From positions 186,001 to 250,000 of the forward strand of contig NZ_ACFE01000002.1 in NCBI RefSeq assembly GCF_000174015.1: a stretch of DNA of 64,000 nt. Direction: 5' to 3'. The translations under genes were made by a program, and so were the position numbers. The stretch comes from Lancefieldella rimae ATCC 49626. GTDB taxonomy: Bacteria > Actinomycetota > Coriobacteriia > Coriobacteriales > Atopobiaceae. The notes below the pieces were generated by a model, which worked only from the letters and a program-made list of their open reading frames with translations, did not search any database and was not told the origin of the DNA. This document shows, piece after piece, positions 17,331-35,319 of the stretch (position 1 is its first letter; the number at the start of each line of letters is the position of its first letter).

Positions 17331-17503
17331 TGTTAAATTTTTGTAGCGCGAGACGCACAATCAACCGGCTGGTCTAAGATTATGCGGAATCGTTATGGAT
17401 TTGACTGTTAAACTGCTCGTGGCAGATGTTTTTTAGGCGAGAAGTTCACTGGGCAAGGAGTCTTGCAGCTGATCTTGCCGCTGAGGAAGAAAGTAGGGTA
17501 GGC

Positions 17504-19872: not shown

Positions 19873-19901
19873 AAGGACTTCTCCTTAATTCATGCGTAGG
19901 A

Positions 19902-20765
19902 CTATTCGTTCGAGGGAGCTCCCGGAATCGGTGGCTGAGGACTGACGTGCAAGTCAGGACTTGGGGTTGGCATTGGGGCCCCTATTTGCGATTGTGTAGG
20001 AGTCGAGACCGGCATTGGAGCTCCCGTTTGCGCCGTTTGCGGTTGTGCGGTGGTTATGGTTGGAGCCACAGGGACTACGGGTGTTGCTGGCGTTGTCACG
20101 GGAGCCGTGGCCTGCATCGGTGCCCCCGGAACAGTTACAGGAACGCTTCCGACAACCCTTCCGGTTGTTGGGTCAACAAGAACCTGCACTGCTACGGGCT
20201 TCTCGCGCTTTATAAAGAGGACAATACTGACTACGACGGAAGCAAGGCACAAAAGAACATAGAGATATCCGTACGGAGCCATACTGAACATGTAAGAGTA
20301 GCCGCTGCGTTGGTATGAATTCATCGAGTAAAATCCGCTCATCTGGGCGTTGAAGGCCGAGATATTTGAGTCAATCTGGTGATAGAACACGGAAAAACAT
20401 ACTAAGCATATAAGGGCTACTACTCCCGTAAGCCAAGAAACTTTTATAGTGCGTGGGAGTAAAGAAAGAAGAATACCCACAAGCGGCAGAATAAGGAAGA
20501 GGATAAGCATATAGAGTTCTTTAGCCGCATTCGCAAAAAGAATAAGCGACTGGTCATTTAGTGACTGGGTAGCGTTGTAGGACTTCATAAAATCCTCTAT
20601 AAGCTGTGCAAATCCAAAGAATTGTCCGATTGAGAAGTGGATCAGATACTCACCATTGGGCTGTACGATATCAAGCTTCATAACAGGAAGGATGAAAAGA
20701 ATCGCTAAAAGACAGCATAAACCTACGTTAATATAGCGAAGAATGGTGTTTGTTTTGGTGTTCAT
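19902..20765 (-). CDS. Four-helix membrane protein with Pro/Thr-rich tail
   Basis: This 287-residue protein has four predicted membrane helices (about 9-30, 85-105, 112-132 and 172-192) and a long Pro/Thr/Val/Gln-rich C-terminal tail (about 205-287). It resembles the protein at 24439 in overall plan, but the tail does not end in a zinc ribbon. ATG 20765 has AGGAG at good spacing; the longer frame does not. It lies 29 bases upstream of the next minus-strand gene, so an operon is likely. No function is recognised. Confidence 0.7.
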   Translation of the reverse strand: MNTKTNTILRYINVGLCCLLAILFILPVMKLDIVQPNGEYLIHFSIGQFFGFAQLIEDFMKSYNATQSLNDQSLILFANAAKELYMLILFLILPLVGILLSLLPRTIKVSWLTGVVALICLVCFSVFYHQIDSNISAFNAQMSGFYSMNSYQRSGYSYMFSMAPYGYLYVLLCLASVVVSIVLFIKREKPVAVQVLVDPTTGRVVGSVPVTVPGAPMQATAPVTTPATPVVPVAPTITTAQPQTAQTGAPMPVSTPTQSQIGAPMPTPSPDLHVSPQPPIPGAPSNE

Positions 20766-20870
20766 ACTGTCTCCTAACGTGATACTGCGTACTGTTGGAA
20801 CAATGCGTGCAGATACTGCGTATTGCGGTGGCGTAGCGGATAGAGGCACATCAAACTAAGAATTCCGTGC

Positions 20871-22157
20871 TTATCGCTTGGTCAGATAGTCGGTTTGCCA
20901 TGTACCGCTGTCAGAGCTGACTGCGATGGTGCGGCCACCGTCTTTTGAGGTAATGGTAAACGGTTCGCTTCGTGTGCTTATCTTGCCGCCGAAGCTGATC
21001 TTGATGGTATTCTCGTCACCGCTCCACGTTCCTTCGGTTACCTTAGTGTCGCCTTCTCGATACGTAACGCTGCCGTCACTCTTCAGAACGATTTCAAGTT
21101 TTTTGTTATCGGTGCCCATACCGGAATACGTACCGACCCATTTTTGCGTAGCAGTTTCGCTTGACCTTTTCTCTTTCTCGGCGTCTTGCTTGTCTTTATC
21201 GGCCTTCTTTTTCAGATCCTTTTTGAGCGAGTTGCCCTTTGTGAGCTGCTCTTTAACCTTGTTTACGTATGAGTCATAATCCGAGTCTTTGCTGGGGTTA
21301 TTCGTCCAGATAATCTTCTCGTCATCAAGATCGCTCTTGAGTTTGTTGAGCGCGTCAAGCTGGTTGTTGAGGGTTGTTTCGTCGATGGAATCCGCGGAAG
21401 CACTCTCGTCAAAGCTGTTTGCCTTCAGTCGAGTCTTGTAATCGTTGTTGAACCAATCAAAAATCTTCTTCTGCTTGTCGGAAATCGAGCTGGTTACAGC
21501 TTCAAGACCGCTGTCATCGGAGCCGTCAGCAAGTTTGAACTTTCCGCTCTCTTGGTCTTTGGTGATCTTGTCTTGAAGATCGGCAAGCTGTTTGTATGAG
21601 TCGAGAAGCGCGGAACGGTCGCTTTCGCTGGTGGGATTGACTTCGATGGCATCAACCTGCGATTTGTAGGAATCTTCAAGTTTGACAACTTCGTCTTTGC
21701 GAGCGTTGTTCTTTTGGTTGGCGTTCCACGCCCACGCACCTATTCCGATACCTGCTCCAAGGACGATTGTGAGAAGGATAATTGCCACAATCTTAAATGC
21801 CTTGTGTGAAGAGCGTTTTTTATGCGGTGTAGGGGAGGCTGCACCTTCTGATACTACTTGGAATTGTGTAGGATCGGCGTAAGTTTGTCGTGATTGCGGA
21901 GCCGTATCGTCGATGGGAGCGGTGGCAGTACTTGTTGGGGCAGGTATGACGGGCGGCATATACATGGTAGGTTCAGCGGGCTGCTGAGGTTCCGGTTCAG
22001 GAGCGGACTGGTTCATGGTTTGCTCAGAAGTTTCATCATAGGTTGTTGCAGAAAAATCAGTTGTCTCGGTTTGAGAGGGCTCAAAAAGTTTTTTTCCGCA
22101 GCTTGTGCAGAATTTTGAACCATCGGGGTTTTCTGCGCCACAGTCGGGGCATTGCAT
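20871..22157 (-). CDS. Zinc-ribbon membrane protein, paralogue of the 18505 protein
   Basis: This 428-residue protein begins MQCPDCGAENPDG then FCTSCGKK (zinc ribbon), followed by a Pro/Thr/Gln-rich linker. A membrane helix lies at about 125-148, then a helical extracytoplasmic part (SYKSQVDAIEV, SSISDKQKKI) and a C-terminal beta domain WVGTYSGMGTDNKK with YREGDTKVTEG. The extracytoplasmic two-thirds align by eye with the 18505 protein almost without gaps, so this is a tandem duplication around the 19902 gene. Strong AAGGAG site. No enzymatic motif is visible. Confidence 0.8.
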   Translation of the reverse strand: MQCPDCGAENPDGSKFCTSCGKKLFEPSQTETTDFSATTYDETSEQTMNQSAPEPEPQQPAEPTMYMPPVIPAPTSTATAPIDDTAPQSRQTYADPTQFQVVSEGAASPTPHKKRSSHKAFKIVAIILLTIVLGAGIGIGAWAWNANQKNNARKDEVVKLEDSYKSQVDAIEVNPTSESDRSALLDSYKQLADLQDKITKDQESGKFKLADGSDDSGLEAVTSSISDKQKKIFDWFNNDYKTRLKANSFDESASADSIDETTLNNQLDALNKLKSDLDDEKIIWTNNPSKDSDYDSYVNKVKEQLTKGNSLKKDLKKKADKDKQDAEKEKRSSETATQKWVGTYSGMGTDNKKLEIVLKSDGSVTYREGDTKVTEGTWSGDENTIKISFGGKISTRSEPFTITSKDGGRTIAVSSDSGTWQTDYLTKR

Positions 22158-22226
22158 GAGAATCTCCTTAATTTTGCAAATTAATATAGTGCTTTGAAAC
22201 CATTATATAGCAACGGAATAAACGTT

Positions 22227-22258
22227 ATCGGGGTCAGAGCGACTGCTCTAACCCCGAT
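22227..22258. terminator. Hairpin downstream of the 22284 gene
   Basis: Arms ATCGGGGT(c)AGAGC and GCTCT(a)ACCCCGAT surround a four-base loop. It lies 26 bases after the stop of the minus-strand gene. The T run is clearer on the plus strand, so it may act in both directions. Confidence 0.6.
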
Positions 22259-22283
22259 TTTGTAAAGAAGAGCGAATTCTTTT

Positions 22284-22667
22284 CTAGTGGAACATGGTAG
22301 CAAGAGCCCCGGCGACACTAATCAAAAGGATAAGATCAAAGAAGGAAATAATCGTGCCCGTAATGGCTAGACCACGCGGCTTTTTAAAACATCCGATAAC
22401 AGAGAGAAGGGCACCGAGGAACCAAACAAACCAACCTACACCGGGCATCCAAGAAAAAAGAAAGCTAATGAGGGCAAGAACAAACCCTGCAGTACCGGCG
22501 CCATTAGATTTAGCTTGCTGAATGTTGTTGACAACTGTTACTTGATGGTTATTTGCTGGCTGATGATTTTGAGGGTGGCTTGCCTGCGTCTGCTGTTCTT
22601 TCGGAGCTGCCGTAGTGGGCTGTTTCTTTGTTGTGGGTACAAACTCACCGGTGTTCTGATCGTACAT
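22284..22667 (-). CDS. Small two-helix membrane protein under the ECF-like promoter
   Basis: This 127-residue protein has an N-terminal Thr/Gln/Asn-rich polar region (1-65) and two hydrophobic hairpins (GTAGFVLALISFLFSWMPG and LAITGTIISFFDLILLI). It resembles small DUF4190-like actinobacterial membrane proteins. ATG 22667 has AAAGGAAG upstream. Its upstream region shares an extended block with that of the transmembrane sigma factor gene (see 22751-22776), so it is a candidate target of that sigma factor. No zinc ribbon is present. Confidence 0.7.
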   Translation of the reverse strand: MYDQNTGEFVPTTKKQPTTAAPKEQQTQASHPQNHQPANNHQVTVVNNIQQAKSNGAGTAGFVLALISFLFSWMPGVGWFVWFLGALLSVIGCFKKPRGLAITGTIISFFDLILLISVAGALATMFH

Positions 22668-22750
22668 ACGTACTTCCTTTCTTTTCTGCGAGTGCACTCG
22701 CATTTTGCTCAATGAGCTTCTTTCTGGTTTCTTTTCCAGCTACCTATAAG

Positions 22751-22776
22751 GACGAAGGGTTGTTGCGAAGTGTTGC
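22751..22776 (-). promoter_or_regulatory. Predicted ECF-type promoter (target gene)
   Basis: On the minus strand GCAAC (22772-22776), 17 bases, CGTC (22751-22754). ECF promoters typically have an AAC-containing -35 and CGTC-like -10 with this spacing. Flanking bases (TTGCAACACTT, the AACC before the -10, and CGTCCTT) match the block at 28565-28590 upstream of the sigma gene. The 5' leader would be about 75 bases. Confidence 0.6.
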
Positions 22777-22807
22777 AATGTTTTGAAAGTTTTTTCAAAT
22801 TCTTGAA

Positions 22808-22845
22808 AATAAAAAATCTCCCAGCTATGAAAGGCTGGGAGATTT
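22808..22845 (-). terminator. Rho-independent terminator
   Basis: Hairpin arms AAATCTCCCAGC/GCTGGGAGATTT with a T-rich tract on the minus strand, 51 bases after the stop at 22896. Confidence 0.85.
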
Positions 22846-22895
22846 CAGCAGATGTACCAGTGCTGAAGCGATAGTAGATTCAGTACGCTTTTGCG

Positions 22896-24047
22896 TTAGC
22901 TTAGGTTGTCTATCTCATACGTTATAGCAACTGGTTTTATTGTGTATGTGCGAGCTTCAGGAGCCATTACATACGGTGCATTGCCTCTAAAATCCTCACT
23001 TTTACCTGGCTTTAAGAAGTTTATATTTTTATGCTGTCCATTTGACCTGAGGAGGTAGTGCCCATTGCACTCAGTATAGTAATAGATTCGCGCAGTTCTC
23101 CACGCATCTTCCGTAGTATTAGTGATATTTCCAACAACACTAGCCTCATACGAATCAAAACTATAAGAGATAGTAAGATTGACGTCGTCTGGGGAAAGGG
23201 CTTTCATAGTGGTAATTGGAGTGAGAGAGCATTCTTTTGTTCGAATCTCTACAGAGGTAACCGTTATGGTGTTTTCTGTTGGGGAAAGTTTAATGAGATT
23301 ATCCGAGCTCTTCTCGGTAACGATTTGAAATCTTGCATTTGGGATGTCTTGATCGTCAAGGTTTTCTTTAGGGGCAAATTCATTTACATAATAAGTAAAC
23401 TGCTTCTTTTCGTGAGGAGCGAGAAAAATTCCTGAGTCTTCTTTTGGGCCGGGTATTTGGATGCAATCTGGAGCGTCTAGAGATGATTTCAAAATCGCAT
23501 CGCCGTCTTTTTTATTCCCCTGTGCATCTGTGTAACTGACCTTAAAGAGAAAGGCAGGAGACGTTACGATATATTGGTCAGAGAGATTTTCGATTGTTCC
23601 GGTAATAGCATAAACATCAGAAAGATCTCCTTTGTAAGTAGTGGCTACTTTAGCCATTCCAAACGAGAGCTCATTTACTTCTACCTTAGGCTTCTCTTTA
23701 GTATCTTTCTCGTTCTTTTTTGTATCTGATGTGGACGAGCTGTCTGAGTCGGATTTAGAAGAATCTTTTGAGTTGGATTTGGATGAGCTGTCGGCTTGCC
23801 TGGTTTCCTCTTTCTTGTCGAGAAGACCAAAACCATGAGTGAAGTATGTAGCAGCACCAATCCCGCTGAGGATGAGGACGACGATAATGATGACAATAAT
23901 CTTTCGTTTATTGCGCTTGAAAGGTGTTTGAGGGTTCGTGGGCATAGAGGACCGCTCTGCCTGTTCAGCTGGTTGAAACGCCGCACCGCAATTAATGCAG
24001 AACTTCTGGTTATCTGGAACTTGCGAACCACAATTTGTGCAAATCAT
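22896..24047 (-). CDS. Zinc-ribbon membrane protein, paralogue of the 25360 protein
   Basis: This 383-residue protein has a zinc ribbon MICTNCGSQVPDNQKFC-x2-CG at residues 1-22, a membrane helix (IIVIIIVVLILSGIGAATYF, about 50-70) and a Ser/Lys/Asp-rich linker. The extracytoplasmic part consists of two beta-rich segments containing YAITGTIENLSDQY and VVGNITNTTEDAWRTARIYYYTE, which resemble repeated Ig-like or DUF5067-like folds. ATG 24047 is chosen because AAGAGG is correctly spaced; an ATG six bases earlier abuts that site. It is closed by a terminator at 22808. Function unknown. Confidence 0.8.
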   Translation of the reverse strand: MICTNCGSQVPDNQKFCINCGAAFQPAEQAERSSMPTNPQTPFKRNKRKIIVIIIVVLILSGIGAATYFTHGFGLLDKKEETRQADSSSKSNSKDSSKSDSDSSSTSDTKKNEKDTKEKPKVEVNELSFGMAKVATTYKGDLSDVYAITGTIENLSDQYIVTSPAFLFKVSYTDAQGNKKDGDAILKSSLDAPDCIQIPGPKEDSGIFLAPHEKKQFTYYVNEFAPKENLDDQDIPNARFQIVTEKSSDNLIKLSPTENTITVTSVEIRTKECSLTPITTMKALSPDDVNLTISYSFDSYEASVVGNITNTTEDAWRTARIYYYTECNGHYLLRSNGQHKNINFLKPGKSEDFRGNAPYVMAPEARTYTIKPVAITYEIDNLS

Positions 24048-24113
24048 TTTCATCCTCTTGTAATAGTAATCCTAAAAGTTTGTCATTCTTTTTGGCAAAC
24101 GACGTAACTACCG

Positions 24114-24262
24114 TTACGGATTGCTTATCTCGGTAAATGATGAAAGATCACCAGAATCGCGCCAGTCGAGCTCAACTGCATCCGGGTATGCTGTATAGAC
24201 TGTAGAATAACTGTCTATAGATGTGCGACGTTTTTCTTCTTGGCTTCGCTTAGCTGATTGTT
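24114..24262 (-). pseudogene. Relic of a cluster paralogue (C-terminal tail only)
   Basis: A frame ending at TAA 24114-24116 reads ...YPDAVELDWRDSGDLSSFTEI then SNP and stop. This matches the C-terminal tails of the sigma factor (IDIDWHEATD...LEQIA) and the 28639 protein (KIEWHNTDDLKPLEDLA). Upstream the frame runs into stops near 24263 and 24277 and no start or ribosome site is seen. It is most simply the remaining end of a third family member. The palindrome CGTAAC-ggta-GTTACG (24102-24117) overlaps its stop. Confidence 0.6.
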
Positions 24263-24438
24263 ACCAAGAGTATATCTAGTTACACTCGATCGACTTTCGT
24301 TACTAGGAGAAAATTAGAATTTACAAGGGTTATTTCAATCAGTAGTTCTTCTAGAACGTTGTCATCCAATATAAAGAATCTCCCGATCAAAAAGGTCGGG
24401 AGATTCCGACAAGACAAGCATTGAAGCTGATGCGAAAC
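24263..24438. other. Gene-free stretch between the relic and the 24439 gene
   Basis: This stretch contains stop codons in the relic's frame and a terminator-like hairpin near its right end. No open frame with a ribosome site is seen. Confidence 0.5.
24377..24405 (-). terminator. Terminator hairpin after the 24439 gene
   Basis: Arms AATCTCCCGA/TCGGGAGATT with a nine-base loop, 33 bases downstream of the minus-strand stop. The arms share ATCTCCC with the terminator at 22808. The T tract is weak. Confidence 0.7.
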
Positions 24439-25284
24439 CTATTCGATCGTGGCTCCACAATTACCACAGAACTTAGTTCCAGGTTCAATCTGATTACCAC
24501 AGCTTGGGCAGAACTGAGGCTGCGATTCAGCCTGAGGTTGATTTTCTGCTGCCTGTGGCTGGTTTGATGTGGGTACGGCAGGTGTGGGGTTTACGGTTGG
24601 ATACTGTGGAGTGTTTGTTGGCTGCACGGGAACCTGATATGCATTCATAGGTATAGCCATACCCATACCCGCAGCAGCTTTCTTTGCTTCATTGTTACGG
24701 TACAGAATAAGGGCACCGATGAGAATTGCGGCAATCTGTCCAATAGCGTAGATGTAGCCAAAGAAGTTGATAGAAACAAAGATACTACTGCTTCCAAAAA
24801 TAGCAGAAGAGCTGGAATTGGGGTTGCTGGGGGAGAAAGCATTATAGGTCATAAGGAAAATGATGCAGTTTATCAGTGCGGGAATGCATGCAAATCCAGC
24901 GTATTTCTTAGTCTGTTTGATTAGAGGAAGCAGAGTTATAGCAAGTGAGAAGATCAAAGAAAAAGCAATGTATCCAATATTGGCGCTAGCATTTGCACCT
25001 GAGCTAGAGCTAGATTGATATATTGTTTTAGCCAGTGATCCGAATGCTGCGAGAGCAGAAAGCGATAGACCTATTGGTCTTTGCATAATATTTAAGTCAA
25101 AGAGAGGGACTATATAAAAGATACATGAGATGACACCAATCACAACGAGAATCGTAGCAAGAAGGGTGTTGTTGTACTTATCGAACTTTGAAAGCGCTCC
25201 TTTAACGTCAAAGTTCTGTTCCGGTTGTATCTGGCCTTGAGGCTGTGTTTGCACTTGTGGCTGCATTTGATTTTGGGTTTCCAT
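24439..25284 (-). CDS. Multi-helix membrane protein with C-terminal zinc ribbon
   Basis: This 281-residue protein has a Gln/Pro-rich N-terminus and four or five membrane helices (about 40-60, 70-90, 105-125, 130-150 and 175-195). A Pro/Thr/Gln-rich linker leads to a zinc ribbon at the extreme C-terminus (FCPSCGNQIEPGTKFC-x2-CG). All other zinc-ribbon proteins of the cluster carry the ribbon at the N-terminus, so the order is inverted here while the ribbon is still probably cytoplasmic. The ATG is preceded by GAAAGGA. It resembles the 19902 protein in plan. Function unknown. Confidence 0.75.
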   Translation of the reverse strand: METQNQMQPQVQTQPQGQIQPEQNFDVKGALSKFDKYNNTLLATILVVIGVISCIFYIVPLFDLNIMQRPIGLSLSALAAFGSLAKTIYQSSSSSGANASANIGYIAFSLIFSLAITLLPLIKQTKKYAGFACIPALINCIIFLMTYNAFSPSNPNSSSSAIFGSSSIFVSINFFGYIYAIGQIAAILIGALILYRNNEAKKAAAGMGMAIPMNAYQVPVQPTNTPQYPTVNPTPAVPTSNQPQAAENQPQAESQPQFCPSCGNQIEPGTKFCGNCGATIE

Positions 25285-25359
25285 ATCGATCCTTTCTAAT
25301 CAATAACCTGGGACATATACTTTTTGCCTCAGGGGATTACCCGTATACGTGAGATCTGG

Positions 25360-26571
25360 TTAGTTTTTATCAACCTGATAAGTAACGGCGATTGGTTTTG
25401 CTTCATAGGTATGGCCGTCTTGGTTAGAACCAAAAATTGAGCCTCCCTTAATATCTGCGCTTGCGTCAGGCTTTACAAAGGTTACATCTTGGCGACCGCT
25501 GGTTGAGCCAAAAGCATAGTAACCGTCCATTTCAGTGTAATAGTAAATCGTTGCAGATGACCATTTGTCTTTAGTGGTGTTAGTGACGGTTCCTGTGACG
25601 GTAGAGCCAAATTGTTCAAAGTTATAGGAGAGGCTCACCTTTGCATCATCTGGAGTAAGAGCTTTTTTATCAGTGAATGATTTGAAAGGACATTCTTTGA
25701 GTTCTACGGAATCAACAGTTATATCGCCCTCGGCCAAAGAAAGATTATTGAGTGTGCTATTAGATTGTTTTGTGGTAACGATATTAAATTTTGCGTCTGC
25801 CTCTTTTTTGTGAGAGTTCTCATTATAAGAATAATCGCTGATATAGTAGGTAAACTCTTTCTTTTCATGAGGGGCGAGAAATATTGTCTCATTTTCAAAT
25901 CCATCTGGAGTTTCCATTTGAGACTGAAGAATCGCGTCACCGTTTTGCTCGTCGCCATAGTTGTCTTTATAACTTACTTTAAAGATAAAAGAAGGTGATG
26001 CCTCTACATACTTATCGGTGGTATTTTCGATAGTGCCTTTAATACTATAGACATCGCGTATTTCTCTATTACTTACAGCTTGCGTCGTATCAAACGAGAT
26101 GTCACTTACTTTAACCGTAGGCTTTTCATCGGCGTCTTTCTTTGTCTTTTTTGTGTCTGATGAGGAAGAATTGCTTGAGCCAGATGTAGTATCAGCGGTT
26201 TGTCCGGCTTCACCCTGTTTGTCTAAAAGACCAAAACCATTAGTGAAATAAGTGGCGGCACCAACTCCACCAACAACAAGAATCAAAACAAGTGCAATAA
26301 CAGCAATCATCTTCTTGTTGTGTTTATGAGACTTCTGAGAGTCATTAGGTTTGGTAGAATTGTTGTGTGTCTGTGTAGCTGGCTGCGATGTTGATGCTTT
26401 CTGAGTTTTCGCTTCCGTTACCTGAGTAGGCTTGGGAGTTATTTGGCCAGTGTTGGAAGCTTCAGCCTGAGATGGCTGGCTTACCTGTTCAGTTGGCTGA
26501 AGTGCTGCACCACAATTCGTGCAGAACTTCTGACCGTCTGGCATTTGCGTACCGCAGTTAGTACAAAACAT
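25360..26571 (-). CDS. Zinc-ribbon membrane protein, paralogue of the 22896 protein
   Basis: This 403-residue protein has a zinc ribbon MFCTNCGTQMPDGQKFC (residues 1-22), a Thr/Gln/Ser linker and a membrane helix (about 88-112). The extracytoplasmic part contains YSIKGTIENTTDKYVEAS, FLAPHEKKEFTYYISDY and VTGTVTNTTKDKWSSATIYY, matching the 22896 protein segment by segment. It starts 46 bases after the sigma gene stop with an AAGGAGG site and is probably in its operon. A binding or sensing role at the cell surface is inferred only from topology. Confidence 0.8.
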   Translation of the reverse strand: MFCTNCGTQMPDGQKFCTNCGAALQPTEQVSQPSQAEASNTGQITPKPTQVTEAKTQKASTSQPATQTHNNSTKPNDSQKSHKHNKKMIAVIALVLILVVGGVGAATYFTNGFGLLDKQGEAGQTADTTSGSSNSSSSDTKKTKKDADEKPTVKVSDISFDTTQAVSNREIRDVYSIKGTIENTTDKYVEASPSFIFKVSYKDNYGDEQNGDAILQSQMETPDGFENETIFLAPHEKKEFTYYISDYSYNENSHKKEADAKFNIVTTKQSNSTLNNLSLAEGDITVDSVELKECPFKSFTDKKALTPDDAKVSLSYNFEQFGSTVTGTVTNTTKDKWSSATIYYYTEMDGYYAFGSTSGRQDVTFVKPDASADIKGGSIFGSNQDGHTYEAKPIAVTYQVDKN

Positions 26572-26617
26572 CTTACTTCCTCCTTAGATCATAAACACGC
26601 GTTCTATTTCATATCAA

Positions 26618-28486
26618 TTAATTGTTACTCGGGGCAATTTGTTCAAGACCACTCTTGTCCGTTGCTTCATGCCAGTCAATATCAATTTCTGAAGGATCTT
26701 CGGGACGCTGATCTATTCTTCCTTTCCACTCGGTAGTAGATGAGAGTTCATGCCCAGAAACTACATACCGTCTGGTCCCAGCTTCTCCTGATCCAGAATA
26801 CCATTCTGTCGACAGCAGCCCGCTTCCATCACTTGTTGCTTGTAAAGATGCTCTAGAACCGCCGGCGTGTGCAACACCTTCGGAAAGTACTTGTGTTTGG
26901 ATTACAAACGCTTGGTTGTCGTTTTTATCAAAGCTAAATATAGAAATGCGATCCATTTCGCCAGTATATTTTTGTTTTAAGAGCAGTTGTGGAATTTGAG
27001 GATTGTCAGGATCCATATATACCAATGAATATTCATACTGGGCAGACATACCCGGAATTTCTAATTCAGGGATATAGCTTGATGCGTTATCAATAATCTC
27101 TGAATACTGATCATACATAGCTTGCTTCATCTGATCTTCTTCTGATACAGATTTTGGTTCATTGGAACTGTTTTGAGCATCAGTTTGAGAAGGAGAATCG
27201 TCTGCCTGTTGCTGTGTCTGAGCCGTTTGTTCGTATGGTTTTGGAATAAACGGTATAAGTCCGTTAGTACCTGCAAAGTACACCCCGCCAGCAGTGGCTC
27301 CCGCAATGGCGACAGTAGCAACACCGGCGGCAATCTTGCCACCTATGCTCATCTTGGCAACAGTTCCTGCTGCTTGCGTAGCCTTTGCTGTGGTAGAAGC
27401 AACCTTTGTGGCTGTAGATGCTCCTTTTGCACCGGCAGATGCACTGCCGGTACTGGCGGCTGTGGCTCCAGTACTGCCCGCAGAAGTTCCAGCACTCCCC
27501 GCTGCTTGTGTGGCGCTTGTCTGTGCTGCCTGAGAGGTATGAGCAGCCGTGCTTTTGGCAAACTCCTCAATGAAAGGATTTGTATAGGGAGCTCCTTGCG
27601 CTGAGAGGCCCTTCTCGCCAAGAGCTTTAGTGACATCACCAAGGCCTTGCATAGCCTCTTGGATAGTCGAGAAGAGCGACGGTGCATTGAGCGCAAGCGG
27701 GATGGGAGCAAGATCGGTGTTGGCAAGAAGTGCAAAGACCGGCACGCTGCTGTAGGATGCCAGCTTGACGCCGGTGCGCTCGGAGTAGGCAAGGATGCTC
27801 TCCTGAAGCGTCTTGCGTGCGCGGCTGAGCTGGCTGCGAACCGTGCCTGCAGGAATACCGAACGTCTCGGCAATCTGGGCTGCATTCATTTCGGCAAAAT
27901 AGCGCGCAACAAGAAACTTCTGTTGATCTTTGGGGAGCTCTTGGATAAATCCGCGAATAATCTGCTGTGTAGAGGTGTTTTCTACAACGTCTTCGGGAAG
28001 CTCAAGCGTATCGTCTGCAAGAGACTCAATGTAGTCTGAGCTGTCGCTGGTATCGTTTGTATAATCTGTGTTGAGTATGGGGGCATTGTCTGATTTTCGC
28101 ATATGGTCGATGGCTTTATTGGTGGCCGTTCGTTTAAACCACGCAAACGCCGCGCGGTTATCTTCCAGCGAGTCAAGCTTTTGGTAGGCTGTAAGATATA
28201 CCTGCTGTACCACGTCTTCAACGTCGCGACCGTCCACACCCTGGTCACAGATTGCCTTAGTTACGATACCCTTGGTCTGCTCAAAGAGTGAAGAAAACGT
28301 GCTCTGGTCGTGGGTTTCTTTAAAAGCCACAATCGTCTTGGCAAGAGTGTCGATGTTTTTCTCGTAAGCCGCCTTGATGTCAGTCTCACGTGAAGGCGCT
28401 GTCTTAAGCAGAGCAAGCTTGCACCCGCAGTATTTACAAAAGCGAGCTGACTGAGGCACTTCATTTCCGCAGTTAGGACAAAACAT
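26618..28486 (-). CDS. Transmembrane zinc-ribbon ECF-like sigma factor
   Basis: This 622-residue protein combines five parts. Residues 1-22 are a zinc ribbon (CPNCGNEVPQSARFCKYCG). About 64-131 is sigma70 region 2 (VEDVVQQVYLTAYQKL, FKRTATNKAIDHMRK). About 175-230 is sigma region 4 (LPKDQQKFLVARYF, AAQIAETFGIPAGTVRSQLS). About 310-375 is an Ala/Ser/Thr-rich linker. About 380-406 is one membrane helix, followed by a 215-residue extracytoplasmic domain. No anti-sigma gene is adjacent, so sensor and sigma factor appear fused. The C-terminal tail motif is shared with the 28639 protein and the 24114 relic. ATG 28486 has AAGGAG; a predicted ECF promoter lies at 28565. Release from the membrane by proteolysis is inferred, not seen. 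Confidence 0.85.
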   Translation of the reverse strand: MFCPNCGNEVPQSARFCKYCGCKLALLKTAPSRETDIKAAYEKNIDTLAKTIVAFKETHDQSTFSSLFEQTKGIVTKAICDQGVDGRDVEDVVQQVYLTAYQKLDSLEDNRAAFAWFKRTATNKAIDHMRKSDNAPILNTDYTNDTSDSSDYIESLADDTLELPEDVVENTSTQQIIRGFIQELPKDQQKFLVARYFAEMNAAQIAETFGIPAGTVRSQLSRARKTLQESILAYSERTGVKLASYSSVPVFALLANTDLAPIPLALNAPSLFSTIQEAMQGLGDVTKALGEKGLSAQGAPYTNPFIEEFAKSTAAHTSQAAQTSATQAAGSAGTSAGSTGATAASTGSASAGAKGASTATKVASTTAKATQAAGTVAKMSIGGKIAAGVATVAIAGATAGGVYFAGTNGLIPFIPKPYEQTAQTQQQADDSPSQTDAQNSSNEPKSVSEEDQMKQAMYDQYSEIIDNASSYIPELEIPGMSAQYEYSLVYMDPDNPQIPQLLLKQKYTGEMDRISIFSFDKNDNQAFVIQTQVLSEGVAHAGGSRASLQATSDGSGLLSTEWYSGSGEAGTRRYVVSGHELSSTTEWKGRIDQRPEDPSEIDIDWHEATDKSGLEQIAPSNN

Positions 28487-28564
28487 CAAGGGCTCCTTAC
28501 GTGTGTCGTCCAAAGACGTAGAGGCAAGAAGAACTTCTCGCCATTTTGTGTGTACGTCCTAAAG

Positions 28565-28590
28565 GACGAGCGGTTCTCGTCAAGTGTTGC
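28565..28590 (-). promoter_or_regulatory. Predicted ECF-type promoter of the sigma factor gene
   Basis: On the minus strand GCAAC (28586-28590), 17 bases, CGTC (28565-28568), giving a leader of about 75 bases to ATG 28486. The same -35/-10 pair, spacing and many flanking bases occur at 22751-22776. This suggests autoregulation by the sigma factor it precedes. Confidence 0.6.
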
Positions 28591-28638
28591 AATATTTGTG
28601 GAACTTTTTTATTGCAACGTTTGAGCGAGAAGAACGCA

Positions 28639-30186
28639 CTATTTTGAGTTGGCCAGATCCTCAAGAGGTTTGAGGTCGTCTGTGTTGTGCCACTCAATTT
28701 TTTCGGCACCCGAAATCTGAGCCATAACATCGTCCTCGCTGGCGGAGGTGGTAAGGCTCATCTTTGTGGGATTTTTGTCGTTGTGAGCGACTTTGCCGTT
28801 CTTTGCGGTAATTGCGTAAAACTCGAGCGTTGAGCTGTTTTTCTGTGGTTGTGCACGGAGAAGACCGCTGCCATTTTTATTCTTGAAGAAGTAGTGCGAG
28901 GTTGGAGAGTTCCAAACCAGCGGTTGTGTAAACGGAGCCGCATAGGAACCCTTGCCTGCCGAATACGCAACGTATGTATAGTAGTCGGTTCCTGTCTTGA
29001 TTTTGCCTCTCTCGGCACCAAACTGGGTTTGGACTTTGAGGATAAGGTCATCGACACCGTCGCCGTTTGCATCAAAGAGTGCGTATTGGACGGTGCCAAA
29101 GGTTGGCTGGAATACGGTGTAGGAGGGGTCGTAAGAATAGACGAGGCTTGCTGCGTCAAAGTTTTTGAGCCGGTCCGTATAGAGCATCGAGAGCTTTTGA
29201 CCTTGCGAGGCGCCTTTAAGACCCTTTGTGAGCTCGGCGTTATAGCCCTTGAAGTCGGCAAAGGTGTCTACGGCTTTGGTGTCATTTACCTGGTGCCATT
29301 CTAGGCCGCCAGGCATGGTAAGGTCGTTTGGCTTGTTGCTGACAAAAGACATTGCTTTACCGTCGGCGTCGCACGTGTAAGCGTATGCGTAGTCGCCGCT
29401 ATTAGTGGGAACGCTGACAATGAGATCGGTGATGCCGTCTCCGTTGACATCTCCCAGTGCGTATTGGGCTGTTCCCTTTGACTTTACGCCGTCAGTGGTG
29501 CTGGCAAGCAGCCAATCCGCATTGAAGTTGCCAAGGTAGTTCTTGTAGAACTGGCCGATTTTAAGGTTTGCGGTTTGATCCGGGATGGTCGGCTCGGAGT
29601 TTTTGTCATCTTTTTCAGCAGGCTCTTGAGTGTCTTTGGATTCTTCAGCGTCCTCAGCGGGTGTTTCTTCCGGCTGTTCAGCTGGAGCTTCCTCGTGTTT
29701 TTCCCATGGGAGGTGGATGTAGCCTTGGGCTATGGCAAAGGCTGTACCGCCGATAAGAAGGCCGGCGAGAATGGCAACAATAGCGAGAATCGCAATCTTC
29801 GCCCCCGTCTTCATAGGCTTTTTGGTACGAGGCTGCTTTTGGTGCTGGGGATGTACTTGGGTTTGAGGTTGGGTTTCGTCTGCGGTTTTGAATGATGGCG
29901 CTATAGGTTGCAGAAGCGTTGTAGCCTCTGGTGTTGGTATGGGCTGCTGTGTTGACGCCGCTTGTTGTGTTGGCTCGGAGGCGGGTTGCTGTGCCAGCTG
30001 GGAATCAGGTTGCTGTTCTGGTGTTGGCTTGGGGGTGGGCCGCTGTTCTGGTGTTGGCTTGGGGGCGACCTGCTGTTCTGATGTCGTGGATTGGTTGGTG
30101 AGCTGCGGCTTTTTTAAAGGAGTGCCGCAATACTTACAAAATAAGTCTGTGTCTTTATTTTCTTTTCCACAGTTGGTACAGAACAT
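28639..30186 (-). CDS. Zinc-ribbon membrane protein with VCBS/FG-GAP-like segments
   Basis: This 515-residue protein starts with a zinc ribbon MFCTNCGKENKDTDLFCKYC (1-20). A Pro/Thr/Gln-rich linker leads to a membrane helix (about 130-152) and an acidic Glu/Lys linker. The large extracytoplasmic domain has two Ca-binding-like repeats, YALGDVNGDGITDLIV and YALFDANGDGVDDLIL, which are typical of FG-GAP/VCBS or dockerin-like loops. The end KIEWHNTDDLKPLEDLA matches the sigma factor's tail, and GSGLL upstream is also shared, so the distal parts may be homologous. It is the first gene of the minus-strand cluster, 152 bases upstream of the sigma gene. Ligand unknown. Confidence 0.8.
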   Translation of the reverse strand: MFCTNCGKENKDTDLFCKYCGTPLKKPQLTNQSTTSEQQVAPKPTPEQRPTPKPTPEQQPDSQLAQQPASEPTQQAASTQQPIPTPEATTLLQPIAPSFKTADETQPQTQVHPQHQKQPRTKKPMKTGAKIAILAIVAILAGLLIGGTAFAIAQGYIHLPWEKHEEAPAEQPEETPAEDAEESKDTQEPAEKDDKNSEPTIPDQTANLKIGQFYKNYLGNFNADWLLASTTDGVKSKGTAQYALGDVNGDGITDLIVSVPTNSGDYAYAYTCDADGKAMSFVSNKPNDLTMPGGLEWHQVNDTKAVDTFADFKGYNAELTKGLKGASQGQKLSMLYTDRLKNFDAASLVYSYDPSYTVFQPTFGTVQYALFDANGDGVDDLILKVQTQFGAERGKIKTGTDYYTYVAYSAGKGSYAAPFTQPLVWNSPTSHYFFKNKNGSGLLRAQPQKNSSTLEFYAITAKNGKVAHNDKNPTKMSLTTSASEDDVMAQISGAEKIEWHNTDDLKPLEDLANSK

Positions 30187-30330
30187 GACACTCCCCAGTA
30201 GCCAATAGTCAATAATTCTCGCCCATCTGTACCATGATAAATATTAATAAATGTTTGCAACAAAACTTATGGTAAATACATCGTTTCTGCACATTTGATG
30301 TACTGAAGGACAAAAATATAACAAATTGAA

Positions 30331-30408
30331 GTAATAAGGTTGGACAGTTGTCATACGGTGGAGTAATAGGGTTGGACAGTTGTCGCACAATCTAAAGTTG
30401 TCACACGG
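30331..30408. repeat. Imperfect direct repeats upstream of the yfcE-like gene
   Basis: GTAATARGGTTGGACAGTTG recurs at 30331 and 30363 (period 32), and a third partial copy GTTGTCACACGG lies at 30397-30408. The spacing and position in the 308-base gap between divergent genes suggest operator sites, or a small remnant repeat. The rest of the gap (30187-30330) shows no gene. Confidence 0.5.
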
Positions 30409-30494
30409 CTAAAATGATAGGACTCAAATAAAACAAACGGAGACTCATTTCGCAAGATGTGTGCTAGATAAGTGCTTTTCGAGAGAGGTTGCAT

Positions 30495-31046
30495 ATGAAA
30501 CTTGTTATTGCTTCTGATATACACGGTGCTGCCGGTTGGGCGCGCAAACTTATGGATCGCATTGAGGTAGAACAGCCCGACCGCGTGCTTCTTCTCGGCG
30601 ACCTTCTCTACCATGGGCCGCGCAACAATCTTCCTGAGGGCTATGCTCCAAAACAGGTTATCGAGATGCTCAATAGCATTGCCGATCAGGTGATTGCCGT
30701 GCGCGGCAACTGCGAGGCCGAGGTGGATCAAATGGTCCTTGATTTCCCGTGTATGGCTGACTACAACATTTTGGTTGATCCTTCCTGCCCGTCTGGCGAG
30801 AAGACCCTCTTTTTAACCCATGGACATATATATGGCCCGGGGCTGCATAACAGCGTTGACAGATGGCCAAAGTTTCCCGAAAACTCAGCTTTTCTTTACG
30901 GACACACGCACAAGAAAGTTAATGAGGTGCTTGCTGGTCATCCTGGCGTAGTCGTATTTAATCCGGGATCTGTCGGGATTCCAAAGGATGATACTCATAG
31001 CTTCGGTATTTACGAGAACGGTGAGTTTAGGCACGTGCTTCTCTAA
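30495..31046 (+). CDS. yfcE: YfcE-type metallophosphoesterase
   Basis: This 183-residue phosphodiesterase has calcineurin-like metal-site motifs in order: SDIHG (10-14), GDLLYHGPRN, GNCE, THGH and YGHTHKK. Length and motifs match the YfcE family (E. coli YfcE 184 residues), manganese-dependent enzymes acting on simple phosphodiesters in vitro; the physiological substrate is not known. ATG 30495 is chosen because GAGAGG lies six bases upstream, whereas the TTG at 30489 is too close to it. Monocistronic, and followed by a repeat-rich region. Confidence 0.9.
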   Translation: MKLVIASDIHGAAGWARKLMDRIEVEQPDRVLLLGDLLYHGPRNNLPEGYAPKQVIEMLNSIADQVIAVRGNCEAEVDQMVLDFPCMADYNILVDPSCPSGEKTLFLTHGHIYGPGLHNSVDRWPKFPENSAFLYGHTHKKVNEVLAGHPGVVVFNPGSVGIPKDDTHSFGIYENGEFRHVLL

Positions 31047-31189: not shown

Positions 31190-31660
31190 ATATTCTCCGA
31201 GCGGTTTGAGGATCTGCTTCGCACGTATTATTTTGTAGGAGGTATGTCTGAGGCCGTTTCTCTTTTTTCGCAAAATTCCGATTTTGTGCAAGTTCGTCGA
31301 GTCCAAGAGGATATTTTGTCTGCGTATCGGAGAGATTTTGCTAAACATGCAGGCAACGTGGTAGGAGAGCGCTGTAGGATGGTGTTTGAATCTCTACCGC
31401 GTCATCTTGCCAAAGAGAATAAAAGTTTGTATACGGAGCGGTCAAGAAGGGTTTTCGTGGACGCGAGCTCGACGACGCGCTGCAATTTCTGCAGGACACA
31501 CGGTCTTACAAATGCCGTGCGCTTCTCGCTTTCAGGATATCGCGAGGAGTCGTGGATGACAAACGTACCCTTGTACGCAGTTCATTGTCTTGCTGCTTTG
31601 CGTCCATAGGCTCTACTTGGAAGGAGCATCACTATCTGAGCCGGGCAACCCCTCACCTGT
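31190..31660 (+). pseudogene. Remnant of an AAA ATPase (DUF4143 type), frameshifted
   Basis: Frame 2 reads ERFEDLLRTYYFVGGM, SEAV, then VRRVQEDILSAYRRDFAKHA and PRHLAKENK, the internal-to-C-terminal part of DUF4143-type AAA ATPases. At the A run 31421-31424 the match continues in another frame: FVYGAVKKGFRGRELDDALQFL. A single lost A explains this. The N-terminal ATPase core is absent and the end degenerates, so this is a pseudogene fragment. A 121-codon frame with AGGAGG at 31236-31243 exists, but its second half is out-of-frame nonsense. Confidence 0.7.
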
Positions 31661-31768
31661 GATGCACTTTTCCGCACCTGTGATGTACTTTAATGTATCG
31701 AAAAGAGCAGTTTTCTCGCCAAATGTGCATCACAGCCTAGGATTTTGGAGCAGAAATGTACATCACAG
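31657..31768. repeat. Four copies of a 14-15-bp word, two per orientation
   Basis: CTGTGATGYACTTT occurs at 31657-31670 and 31678-31691, and its complement AAATGTRCATCACAG at 31721-31735 and 31754-31768. The two pairs can fold into long stems. The surrounding stretch to 32079 holds no convincing gene, only the promoter region of the phosphonate cluster. Confidence 0.65.
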
Positions 31769-32079
31769 CTTTCAGAATCTACCCCACAGGTTTACACCGC
31801 TTGGATGGGAGCCTTCTCGTACACGCGCGATTCTCACTGTCCATATAGGAATCAAAGTGTGAACTATCTCGTTGCATTTATGCAGGTAATTCAATATCAG
31901 ATATTGCTACAATACGCTTTGGTGAGAAGATCGATACGATTGATAGAGTCACGATGAGTCCTCGGCTCTGAGGGGCATTACTATACTGAGCTGGGGAATT
32001 ATCCCTTACGCTCAGATGGCATGAAAGTGTGCGTGCTATCATAGACAACATATCATTCCGCACCATTTGGAGGAATCTC

Positions 32080-33216
32080 ATGCAAGAAAGCGTAAAGAGA
32101 AACGTTCTGCTTAATCCCGGTCCATCTACGACGACTGATTCGGTCAAGTATGCACAGGTTGTTCCCGATATCTGTCCGCGTGAGAAAGAATTTGCGTCCA
32201 TTATGGCACCGATGCGCGATGATCTGGTGCGGATTGTGCACGGAGATCCCAAAGAATATACGGCAGTGCTGTTCTGCGGTTCAGGAACCATTTGTATTGA
32301 TGTTGTTTTGAACTCGCTGCTTGCAGAGGGCAAAAAGGCGCTTGTTGTGAATAACGGTTCTTATAGCCAGCGTGCCTGCGATGTACTCACGGCGTACCAC
32401 ATGCCGTTTGTTGAGGTGAAGCAGCCGGTTGATACTACGCCTGACCTCGACGTTATTGAAGCAGTGCTTAAAGATAATCCTGATGTGGGATATGTGTATA
32501 TGACCTTCCATGAGACGGGCTCAGGTCTTTTGAATCCTGTCCGCGAGGTAGGCGCGCTTGCGCACAAGTACGGTGCGTTCTTTATTACGGATTCTACCTC
32601 GGCGTATGCGATGATTCCCATTAACGTGTACGAGGACAACATCGACTTTTGCATGGCGTCGGCGCAAAAGGGAATTCAGGCCATGACGGGCTTGTCGTAT
32701 GTTATTGGCCGTCGCGACATCGTTGAAGCTTCTAAAGACTTCCCCGTACGGTCGTATTATTGCAATTTGTATCTGCAGTACGAATACTTTGAGACTACCG
32801 GTGAGATGCACTTTACACCTCCCGTTCAGACCATTTATGCGGCACGTCAGGGAATCAAAGAGTACTTTGAAGAAGGCGAGTCTGCAAAGTGGGCTCGTCA
32901 TCAGCGTGTGATGGCTGCCATCAGGCAAGGTATTGACCGTTTGGGCTTGAAAGAGGCTTTGAAGCGAGAAGTGCAGTCAGGTTTGGTGGCTGCGGTGCGT
33001 TACCCCGATGATCCTGCCTGGGACTTTGAGAAGGTTCACGACTATTGCTATGAGCGAGGGTTTACCATCTATCCCGGTAAGATGCAAGGAGCCGGCACGT
33101 TTAGACTCTGTGCTCTTGGCGCTCTCGACGAAGAAGACATCGTTGCGTTTTGGGAAGTCTTTGAGCAGGCGCTTGTCGCAATCGGCGTTTCTGCACCGGT
33201 AACCTATACAGAGTAG
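32080..33216 (+). CDS. phnW: 2-aminoethylphosphonate transaminase
   Basis: This 378-residue class V PLP aminotransferase starts VLLNPGPSTTTDSVK and has the PLP lysine in SAQKGIQ and the glycine-rich LFCGSGT. In degradative settings PhnW makes phosphonoacetaldehyde from 2-AEP. Here it heads a cluster with PEP mutase, phosphonopyruvate decarboxylase and a cytidylyltransferase, so it most likely runs in the biosynthetic direction, making 2-AEP. ATG 32080 has GGAGG at good spacing. A 37-base gap to the next gene suggests one operon. Confidence 0.9.
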   Translation: MQESVKRNVLLNPGPSTTTDSVKYAQVVPDICPREKEFASIMAPMRDDLVRIVHGDPKEYTAVLFCGSGTICIDVVLNSLLAEGKKALVVNNGSYSQRACDVLTAYHMPFVEVKQPVDTTPDLDVIEAVLKDNPDVGYVYMTFHETGSGLLNPVREVGALAHKYGAFFITDSTSAYAMIPINVYEDNIDFCMASAQKGIQAMTGLSYVIGRRDIVEASKDFPVRSYYCNLYLQYEYFETTGEMHFTPPVQTIYAARQGIKEYFEEGESAKWARHQRVMAAIRQGIDRLGLKEALKREVQSGLVAAVRYPDDPAWDFEKVHDYCYERGFTIYPGKMQGAGTFRLCALGALDEEDIVAFWEVFEQALVAIGVSAPVTYTE

Positions 33217-33253
33217 AGCACGTCAGAATAGAGCACGTTCTAAAGGAGTTGTT

Positions 33254-34549
33254 ATGCCAGTTGTCTATACCGCCCTTGGTACCGACGTTATTCATGAGGG
33301 GCATCTGAACATTCTCAAGTGCGCGCAAGAATACGGAACCGTGGTTGTAGGAGCCTTGAGTGACAAAGCTCTCATTCGATACAGTCGGTTTCCGACGGTT
33401 TCCCAAGAAGAACGCGTTAAGCTCTACGAGTCCCTTGAAGGTGTGAGTCGCGTCATTATCCAGGATGACTATCTTTACGACGACGTGATTGCAACACTCA
33501 AGCCCGATTACGTAGTACATGGCGACAACTGGCAAAACGGTCCCGAACGCGCCATCCGTAACAACATTGAGGGGCTTCTCGCCACATACGGCGGAACGCT
33601 CATAGAGGTGCCATATACCAGAAGCGAGCAGGCGCGCAAAGTTGACCAGCAGCTCCGTGAGAAACTGGCCATGCCGGAATACCGCCGCCGTCGCTTGAGG
33701 CAGCTTTTGGCCATTTCACCGACGGTTAAGGTCATTGAGGCTCACGACGGACTTACCGGCCTTATTGCCGAGAAGACCGTTGTGGATCACAACGGTCGCC
33801 TTGATCAGTTTGACGGCATGTGGGTCAGCTCGCTTTGCGACAGTACGGAGCGCGGCAAGCCCGACATTGAGCTTGTGGATATGTCCGCCCGCCTGCGTAC
33901 CGTTGACGACATTATGGAAGTCACCACCAAACCCATCATTCTTGACGGGGATACCGGAGGCTTGACGGAACACTTTGTCTACAACGTGCGTACGCTGGAG
34001 CGCATGGGCGTTTCTGCCGTCATTATTGAGGATAAGACCGGCCTTAAGAAGAATTCCCTGTTCGGCACTGAGGTTAAACAAACGCAGGCACCCATTGAGG
34101 ATTTTTGCGCAAAGATTTCCGCAGGTAAAAAAGTTCAACTGACCGATGACTTTATGATTATCGCGCGCATCGAGAGCCTCATTCTTGAGCGCGGTATGGA
34201 GGACGCCCTTACCAGAGCATTTGCCTTTAGAGACGCCGGCGCCGACGGCATTATGATTCACAGTCGCAAAAAAGATCCTGCCGAGATTTATGAGTTCTGT
34301 GATCGTTTCCGCGAGAAAGACGCCACAACGCCGATTGTTGTTGTACCCACGTCGTTTAACGGCGCAACGGAGGAAGAGCTTGCGTCTCATGGCATCAACA
34401 TCGTTATCTACGCCAACCAGCTGATTCGCGCAGCGTTTCCCGCCATGCAAGAGACGGCTCGCGGTATCCTGAGGGCACACCGCGCACTTGAGGTTGACGA
34501 GCAGCTCCTTCCGTTTAAGGACATCATCCGCCTTATTGACGAGCTGTAG
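33254..34549 (+). CDS. aepX: Phosphoenolpyruvate mutase with N-terminal nucleotidyltransferase domain
   Basis: The protein is 431 residues. Residues 1-135 form a cytidylyltransferase-like domain with HEGH (14-17), but the usual C-terminal ISTT-type motif is replaced by PYTRSEQARKV, so its activity is doubtful. Residues about 150-431 are a PEP mutase/isocitrate-lyase-fold domain with LDGDTGG, EDKTGLKKNSLFG and RIESL, the residues binding Mg2+ and substrate. It rearranges PEP to phosphonopyruvate, the entry step of phosphonate synthesis; the thermodynamically favourable partner is the decarboxylase at 35319. AAAGGAG ribosome site. Confidence 0.93.
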   Translation: MPVVYTALGTDVIHEGHLNILKCAQEYGTVVVGALSDKALIRYSRFPTVSQEERVKLYESLEGVSRVIIQDDYLYDDVIATLKPDYVVHGDNWQNGPERAIRNNIEGLLATYGGTLIEVPYTRSEQARKVDQQLREKLAMPEYRRRRLRQLLAISPTVKVIEAHDGLTGLIAEKTVVDHNGRLDQFDGMWVSSLCDSTERGKPDIELVDMSARLRTVDDIMEVTTKPIILDGDTGGLTEHFVYNVRTLERMGVSAVIIEDKTGLKKNSLFGTEVKQTQAPIEDFCAKISAGKKVQLTDDFMIIARIESLILERGMEDALTRAFAFRDAGADGIMIHSRKKDPAEIYEFCDRFREKDATTPIVVVPTSFNGATEEELASHGINIVIYANQLIRAAFPAMQETARGILRAHRALEVDEQLLPFKDIIRLIDEL

Positions 34550-34558
34550 GTGACGGGA

Positions 34559-35299: not shown

Positions 35300-35319
35300 A
35301 TTTAGAGGAGTTAGATTTA
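35290..35319 (+). repeat. Tandem 15-bp duplication carrying the ribosome-binding site
   Basis: GAGGAGTTAGATTTA is repeated twice head to tail. The first copy contains the pntC stop, and the second supplies the GAGGAG for the decarboxylase start at 35319. Only the second copy is well placed for initiation. Confidence 0.9.

Follow-up and report, generated by a model that had tools for sequence, protein, structure and literature searches.

Extracytoplasmic function (ECF) sigma factors fused to membrane segments have been described before. The excerpted parts of one review list ECF48, ECF52 and ECF53, which bear a zinc finger and C-terminal helices, together with ECF243 (IutY) and ECF262 (PMC8999054). 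ECF52, ECF48 and ECF53 resemble the protein described here in holding an ECF sigma, a metal-binding domain, a helix (putative in the present protein) and an exported domain in one chain; proteolytic release has been proposed for them, along with positive autoregulation (PMC5826349, PMC8999054, excerpts). SCO4117 of Streptomyces coelicolor (ECF52) contains a sigma domain, pfam13490, a helix and a carbohydrate-binding module, and truncated SCO4117 is reported to activate its own gene (PMC5826349, excerpt). IutY of Pseudomonas putida (ECF243) has a sigma joined to a membrane regulator and is activated by Prc and RseP, and ECF262 (SFB89493.1, Ruminococcus albus) is listed under 'others' with an unexplained regulatory extension (PMC8999054, excerpt). 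For N-terminal ECF extensions, the excerpted text of PMC8103513 states that no mechanistic information has been obtained so far. Here we analyse a gene of Lancefieldella rimae ATCC 49626 that encodes a sigma factor with an N-terminal zinc ribbon, a putative membrane helix and an extracytoplasmic domain (ectodomain) in one chain, hereafter the fusion protein. The gene lies at 26618-28486 of a 64,000-nucleotide stretch (contig NZ_ACFE01000002.1, positions 186,001 to 250,000), which we call the window. It is on the minus strand, as are all features of the gene and its cluster given below.

The principle of a membrane-fused ECF sigma is known; the fusion protein differs in its N-terminal ribbon and its ectodomain family, and a paired promoter-like element is new here. 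The first-pass annotation, made from the sequence alone, had presented the protein as exceptional, which was too strong, as membrane-fused ECF sigmas were already published (PMC8999054, excerpt). As far as the excerpted description of SCO4117 goes, its zinc domain pfam13490 is in the C-terminal extension, whereas Zn_Ribbon_1 precedes the sigma regions in the fusion protein, and the exported part of SCO4117 is rich in proline and includes a carbohydrate-binding module, whereas the ectodomain of the fusion protein belongs to another family. No pfam13490 match to the fusion protein was listed by Pfam at E up to 1. IutY carries a fused FecR-type anti-sigma factor of iron surface signalling; the fusion protein differs from it, with no FecR match listed by Pfam at E up to 1. 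Ruminococcus albus AR67 (locus L064) has three ribbon-less fusions, with frames of 574, 649 and 694 residues, which may be of the same kind as ECF262. In a narrow literature search, which is weak evidence of absence, we found no paper on a fusion of zinc ribbon, sigma and membrane segment.

The gene starts at ATG 28486, directly preceded by an AAGGAG ribosome site, and its stop codon occupies 26618-26620. A frame artefact is ruled out by the 622 open codons, the ribosome-binding site and homologues with the same plan. The chain begins with a zinc ribbon (residues 2-24, 28415-28483; Pfam Zn_Ribbon_1, E 3.9e-7), and the AlphaFold2 model gives block means of 84 and 89 in the predicted local distance difference test (pLDDT) for residues 1-20. 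Sigma region 2 follows (Pfam residues 85-133, 28088-28234; Sigma70_r2, E 2e-8), its helices spanning residues 31-131 in the model, and then sigma region 4 (residues 175-227, 27806-27964; Sigma70_r4_2, E 2.9e-13); both regions are also placed by the model and by a profile. All three matches exceed the curated Pfam cut-offs, NCBIfam TIGR02937 (sigma70-ECF) matches above its cut-off (E 3.8e-24), and regions 2 and 4 are the sole sigma regions over cut-off in either database. A profile of the N-terminal part (n=42, the fusion protein included) matched solved ECF sigmas, the best being SigW (5wuq, 2.8e-42), and a Foldseek search with the model returned sigmaE and SigW among its matches. The ribbon and both sigma regions of the first-pass annotation are thus borne out, as is its order of ribbon, sigma, linker, putative helix and outside domain in a 622-residue frame; about 219 residues lie past the helix, close to the roughly 215 it gave.

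These matches also bear on whether the sigma part can still initiate transcription. It could instead be a membrane-bound module that serves only for DNA binding or as a scaffold, and region 2 of the relative L114 does score poorly (Sigma70_r2 E 0.017, below cut-off). We consider this very improbable. Both regions of the fusion protein itself pass their curated cut-offs; an alignment of 14 ribbon fusions has 18 invariant columns, four at the ribbon end and the other 14 within or just past the sigma regions; and an ECF-type element precedes the gene.

Sigma region 4 is followed by a conserved hydrophobic segment (residues 239-262, 27701-27772) with the approximate pattern G-x-K-L-Y-S-x-A-P-x-P-F-L-L-L-L. 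In an alignment of 42 sequences, of which 41 are fusions and one is truncated at a contig end, G239 is kept in 37, L242 in 34, L254 in 29 and P249 in 24. Residues 248-266 form a second hydrophobic stretch (Kyte-Doolittle 1.55), which was absent from the first-pass annotation. A linker rich in Ala, Ser, Thr and Gly (27335-27568, by composition) leads to the putative membrane helix (residues 385-403, 27278-27334), and the distance from the end of the sigma profile to the helix is 113 residues, compared with a family median of 60.

The case for this helix, drawn from hydropathy, homologues and charge bias, rests on relatives. In 54 other fusions, the matching segment has Kyte-Doolittle values of 1.61-3.02, although all had been preselected for a segment of at least 1.5. 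The charge distribution is independent of this selection. In 52 of 55 fusions (the 57 fusions counted below minus two truncated duplicates), the stretch of 20 residues leading into the helix is more positive than the 40 residues that follow. Because the residues preceding the helix carry more positive charge, the N terminus is predicted to be inside.

An ECF-promoter-like element, TTGCAAC-N17-CGTCC, lies at 28564-28592, 77 nt 5' of the ATG of the fusion gene. A second copy at 22750-22778 lies 82 nt 5' of the presumed ATG 22667 of another gene in the same cluster, 22284-22667; this start was chosen by us, and the mechanical frame begins at TTG 22712. The element common to both sites is TTGCAACACTT-N12-TCGTCC, that is, TGCAAC-N17-CGTC, which we take to have the shape of an ECF promoter. 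In the 1.63-Mb genome, the exact element occurs at these two sites only, both in the cluster and pointing at its genes; there are six further matches, each with 3 mismatches, compared with four for a reversed control pattern. With up to 3 mismatches, the 64-kb window holds only the two sites, where 0.15 were expected, and 1 of 100 shuffles reached two. The two upstream regions share 29 of 36 bases, and the next best among the 36 pairs of nine upstream regions shares 22; the highest of 60 resampled controls reached 23. Gene duplication is an unlikely cause of the pairing, since the two products have no recognised domain in common and the likeness of the upstream regions fades beyond the element. 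An alternative motif, GAAC-N16-CGTA at 28576, overlaps the element of the fusion gene, and its pattern has two matches in the window; we prefer the element common to both genes. The paired element suggests that the sigma autoregulates its local cluster, its recognition of these promoters being predicted from motif shape and position.

The most likely reading of these data is a one-chain transmembrane ECF sigma that is released upon an envelope signal and then transcribes its own gene together with another operon in the cluster; we give this about an even chance. Computation supplies the domains, the family, the charge bias towards an inside N terminus, the ectodomain found in other proteins as well and the element at its two sites, while silence at rest, the signal, cleavage and promoter recognition are inferred. 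The ribbon and sigma regions 2 and 4 would be cytoplasmic, joined by the long flexible linker to a single membrane helix and a sensor domain outside. In the resting cell, the sigma part would be held at the membrane. An envelope signal sensed through the ectodomain would free or unlock the sigma part, most likely by a two-step cleavage that ends with an M50 intramembrane protease. The freed ribbon-sigma fragment would then join RNA polymerase and transcribe the fusion gene and the second operon from the two ECF-type promoter copies. The source genome has two M50 protease matches.

Several observations weigh against this reading. The helix of the fusion protein is borderline when taken alone (mean Kyte-Doolittle 1.57), and AlphaFold2 builds no helix over residues 385-403, where its confidence is low. 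For a C-terminal membrane helix with an exported extension like that of ECF48, ECF52 and ECF53, the helices of relatives and the charge bias speak in favour, and the marginal hydropathy and the AlphaFold2 model against. The model has no confident intrachain contact that would silence the sigma, and M50 proteases are found in 14 of 14 control genomes as well. As for the promoter, two sites are a small number, and the element may serve another regulator as its operator. The shorter core TTGCAAC-N17-CGTC also matches exactly at a third place in the window, 11634-11661 on the minus strand, which is outside the cluster. For the looser motif AAC-N16/17-CGT, the counts upstream of the gene are 2 of 16 ribbon fusions against 0.6 expected, 5 of 28 other fusions against 0.74 and 7 of 28 plain ECFs against 1.19. 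Most homologues thus lack this motif and plain ECFs carry it too, so autoregulation by such a promoter is not supported as a feature of the fusions. A repeat search in the cluster of L002, a Lachnospiraceae locus, returned common ribbon-coding stretches with ribosome sites and no pair like the element of the window. Finally, the adjacent zinc-ribbon, single-helix proteins share the layout of membrane anti-sigma factors and could be partners.

Release is not the only way in which such a chain could act. The sigma may be active while tethered, with the linker reaching polymerase and nearby promoters and the control lying in a conformational switch, perhaps the undocking of the post-sigma4 segment. 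The conservation of G239 and L242 in that segment, the length of the Ala/Gly/Ser/Thr-rich linker relative to the family median, and the position of both promoter-like sites within the sigma gene's own cluster all agree with this. The segment, however, is not confidently docked in the AlphaFold2 model, where residues 245-266 have pLDDT below 50, and IutY, the sole fused ECF with an experimentally characterised mechanism of such kind in the excerpted text of PMC8999054, uses proteolysis. We regard activity in the tethered state as unlikely.

Whether the chain is self-sufficient depends on what its neighbours do. Among the eight neighbouring genes, no anti-sigma family was found over cut-off in Pfam. 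The first-pass annotation had stated that no anti-sigma gene lies next to the fusion gene, and this holds in so far as no such family passes its cut-off; both adjacent genes encode zinc-ribbon, single-helix proteins, one with a sub-threshold DUF4179 match. At plain ECF loci, 12 of 14 have a gene within 250 bp downstream with one helix that starts at residue 43-68. With the start allowed at residue 40-110, a range picked after seeing the data, such a gene follows 4 of 15 ribbon fusions, three of the four being zinc-ribbon proteins, and 0 of 15 other fusions. When a single helix anywhere is accepted, the counts are 12 of 14 for plain ECFs, 8 of 15 for ribbon fusions and 5 of 15 for other fusions, the extra matches being mostly N-terminal and signal-peptide-like. 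Among the 14 genes behind plain ECFs that were scanned, Pfam gave one DUF4179 match and NCBIfam none; because the family models are nearly silent, it is the layout of these genes that argues for reading them as anti-sigma factors. As a gene of this layout follows most plain ECFs and few fusions, the fused chain plausibly stands in for an anti-sigma factor of its own gene. The claim that sensor and sigma are combined in one chain is supported by the domains, by a collinear relative (L164) and by many fusions of the same plan.

Alternatively, control may truly lie with a neighbouring zinc-ribbon, single-helix protein, which would serve as anti-sigma or co-sensor by contact between the ribbons, the fused ectodomain being mainly an anchor. 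Both adjacent genes have the layout for this, and the DUF4179 family hinted at in one of them is the one seen once behind a plain ECF. A sigma-free zinc-ribbon gene also lies near 7 of 15 ribbon fusions, compared with 2 of 15 among the other fusions and 2 of 14 among plain ECFs (6, 1 and 1 of those loci when a helix is required). Against it, 8 of 15 ribbon-fusion loci have no such gene in the stretch covered, some stretches being short and at least two of these eight under 10 kb; none of the neighbours matches an anti-sigma family over cut-off in Pfam or NCBIfam; and most fusions have no ribbon. We therefore consider regulation by a neighbour improbable.

The ectodomain (residues 449-622, 26621-27142), delimited with homologues, is modelled with a mean pLDDT of 89 and a predicted template-modelling score (pTM) of 0.87. 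L164, from genome G446 of the Lachnospiraceae set, is collinear with the fusion protein from end to end (27% over 626 columns, E 8e-44), with ribbon, sigma, linker, helix and ectodomain in the same order. The ectodomain of L168 is 32% identical to that of the fusion protein over 167 columns (E 6e-21). A profile of three ectodomain sequences found the module in 7 of 299 genomes of the Lachnospiraceae set at E 0.001 and in 6 of 140 genomes of the source organism's own family (its own included) at E 0.01. Its carriers include the sigma fusions L259 and L261 and the sigma-free zinc-ribbon/helix proteins L264-L268; the latter belong to the unnamed proteins with zinc ribbon, single helix and ectodomain that share the ribbon family and layout of the fusion protein and differ from it in lacking sigma domains. 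In L258, the module is preceded solely by an N-terminal hydrophobic stretch. L257 (718-2502, in a genome of the Lachnospiraceae set) is a FecR protein (FecR E 7.1e-8) with the ectodomain of the fusion protein, which ties the module to a second family of sigma regulators. Most matches to the profile are weak (E 4e-9 to 2e-3), and that of L257 is strong (8.6e-47). Pairwise comparisons of the ectodomain with the upstream neighbour and with L083 were not significant (E 0.22 and 0.15); the upstream neighbour matches the profile weakly, at E 0.0014 in a small set. As judged from these matches, the ectodomain is a module common to sigma fusions, sigma-free zinc-ribbon membrane proteins and one FecR protein. 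Comparison with solved folds gave no Foldseek match in the PDB at E up to 0.001 (best 5.3e-3), a VIA-align Z of at most 5.8, and a best E of 0.15 for the sequence profile; we therefore assign the ectodomain to no fold.

At the C-termini of L114, L168, L257 and L260, there is a further common stretch, approximately Y-W-P-S/G-D-x-S-L/I-P-L/V-G-Q/E-P; Pfam gives it no name in L114 or L257.

Proteins of this plan, with sigma followed by linker, helix and ectodomain, occur repeatedly in Lachnospiraceae and Coriobacteriia, and fewer than half of them have a zinc ribbon, as a phyletic search proposed with the first-pass annotation now shows. Among 120 unique sigma open reading frames, from loci gathered by searches with the fusion protein, 57 are at least 300 residues long with a hydrophobic helix after the sigma (a segment of at least 1.5 being the selection criterion), and 13 of the 57 have the ribbon, one gene being counted twice. 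A later set has 45 fusions without the ribbon and 17 with it, L083 and L084 among the latter; in L083 the first ribbon Cys pair is incomplete. Among the first relatives (the best 80 of 104 loci), most match in the ribbon only, and L002 alone spans residues 1-444.

Within its own genus, the fusion is present in one of five genomes, the source genome; the other match, a frame of 228 residues, lacks both ribbon and helix. The counts for class, family and phylum are lower bounds, with at most 6-9 candidates scored per genome. In at least 3 of 396 genomes of the class (G000, G121 and G409), a match at E 1e-20 reaches the ribbon end of the profile, and a family search added a fourth ribbon fusion of the class, L084 in G139, a gene cut by a contig end. 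At least 13 places in 10 of 299 genomes of the family of G425 (Lachnospiraceae bacterium P6B14, the source of L002) reach the ribbon end. Among the matches listed for 296 genomes of the phylum, only that of the source genome starts at profile position 1; three others listed begin at 5-8, and two of these contain stops. A plasmid search gave 102 records, all below 60% identity and none covering 80% of the query, and the five matches listed involve the sigma part.

A quick tree built from 90 sigma domains requires 7 changes of the ribbon label, at least 4 of them forced by well-supported branches. Since the ribbon has changed state at least four times, the tree argues against an essential role of the ribbon in sigma function. 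The ribbon may bind a partner, DNA or redox signals, as the first-pass annotation proposed. L084, from the source organism's own family, forms a sister pair with L161 from the Lachnospiraceae set (support 99). The contig of L084 measures 5.9 kb, however, and its genome is 73% complete with 3% contamination, so L084 may be wrongly placed. The fusion protein groups with L083 and L114 (support 94), and this group next joins two fusions of the Lachnospiraceae set that lack the ribbon (support 97). The simplest reading of this tree is that fusions were transferred between the Lachnospiraceae set and the own group of the source organism.

Two further observations concern individual relatives. The fusion gene of G121 (L083:803-2628) has a frame change between helix and ectodomain, which is either an assembly error or a true break. 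Genomes G157, G146 and G149 of family f13 have at least 6, 6 and 4 sigma matches at E 1e-20, mostly in frames of about 450-620 residues, and the members L115 and L119 have a membrane helix after the sigma; this is read from the matches as a local expansion of fused sigmas.

The fusion gene is one of nine genes on the same strand at 18505-30186. Seven of them, the fusion gene included, have a zinc-ribbon-type match over cut-off; the exceptions are 22284-22667 and 19902-20849. The upstream neighbour (28639-30186) has a zinc ribbon, one helix and an FG-GAP-type ectodomain (Pfam and other evidence), and the downstream neighbour (25360-26571) has a zinc ribbon, one helix and an ectodomain, with an FxLYD match below cut-off and the DUF4179 match mentioned above (E 0.048; 14.5 bits, cut-off 30.1). 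The cluster continues with a protein with a C-terminal zinc ribbon (24439-25284, Pfam); a protein with zinc ribbon and helix (22896-24053), a diverged duplicate of 25360-26571; the small protein behind the second promoter-like element (22284-22667, no Pfam match over cut-off); a protein with zinc ribbon, one helix and ectodomain (20871-22157); a member without a recognised domain (19902-20849, no Pfam match over cut-off); and a protein with a zinc-ribbon-type N terminus and a helix (18505-19872), a partial duplicate of 20871-22157. The same Zn_Ribbon_1 heads the neighbouring sigma-free membrane proteins, and the fusion protein fits the layout of the ribbon membrane proteins of the cluster (N-terminal Zn_Ribbon_1, borderline helix, ectodomain) with sigma domains added.

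In the sister species G001 and G004, the flanking genes 17426-18487 and 30489-31046 are about 115 bp apart, and in G002 and G003 about 1.06 kb replaces 19.9-30.5 kb. The guanine-plus-cytosine (GC) content is 41-43% at 22-26 kb and 46-57% elsewhere in the window. The zinc-ribbon cluster (18505-30350) is by this comparison an accessory insertion, because it is missing wholly or mostly at the same place in four sister species and its GC content is lower.

Beyond the insertion, a segment of up to 137 bp at 31655-31792 has twelve more copies in the genome (113-137 bp, 74-84% identity), with three short opposite-strand matches at the copy ends that suggest inverted ends; it is a dispersed repeat and possibly a small mobile element. 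The genes at 32029-36440 encode a class-V aminotransferase, a phosphoenolpyruvate (PEP) mutase with a cytidylyltransferase-like domain, a nucleoside triphosphate (NTP) transferase and a thiamine pyrophosphate (TPP) enzyme, which presumably form a phosphonate pathway. The stretch 31988-34500 is kept in G002 and G003.

The step from an outside signal to sigma activity is usually studied through a separate anti-sigma factor, and here it would lie within one chain in many anaerobes. The sensor domains appear exchangeable, and with two candidate target promoters in the source genome the pathway is directly testable. On a broader and rather doubtful view, which we put forward only tentatively, Lachnospiraceae and Coriobacteriia may hold a mobile, mix-and-match class of one-component transmembrane sigmas, whose ribbon and ectodomain modules are swapped with sigma-free membrane proteins, each sensor driving a small, self-contained regulon of membrane proteins with the same modules. 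If this were true, sensor and output would be built from common parts.

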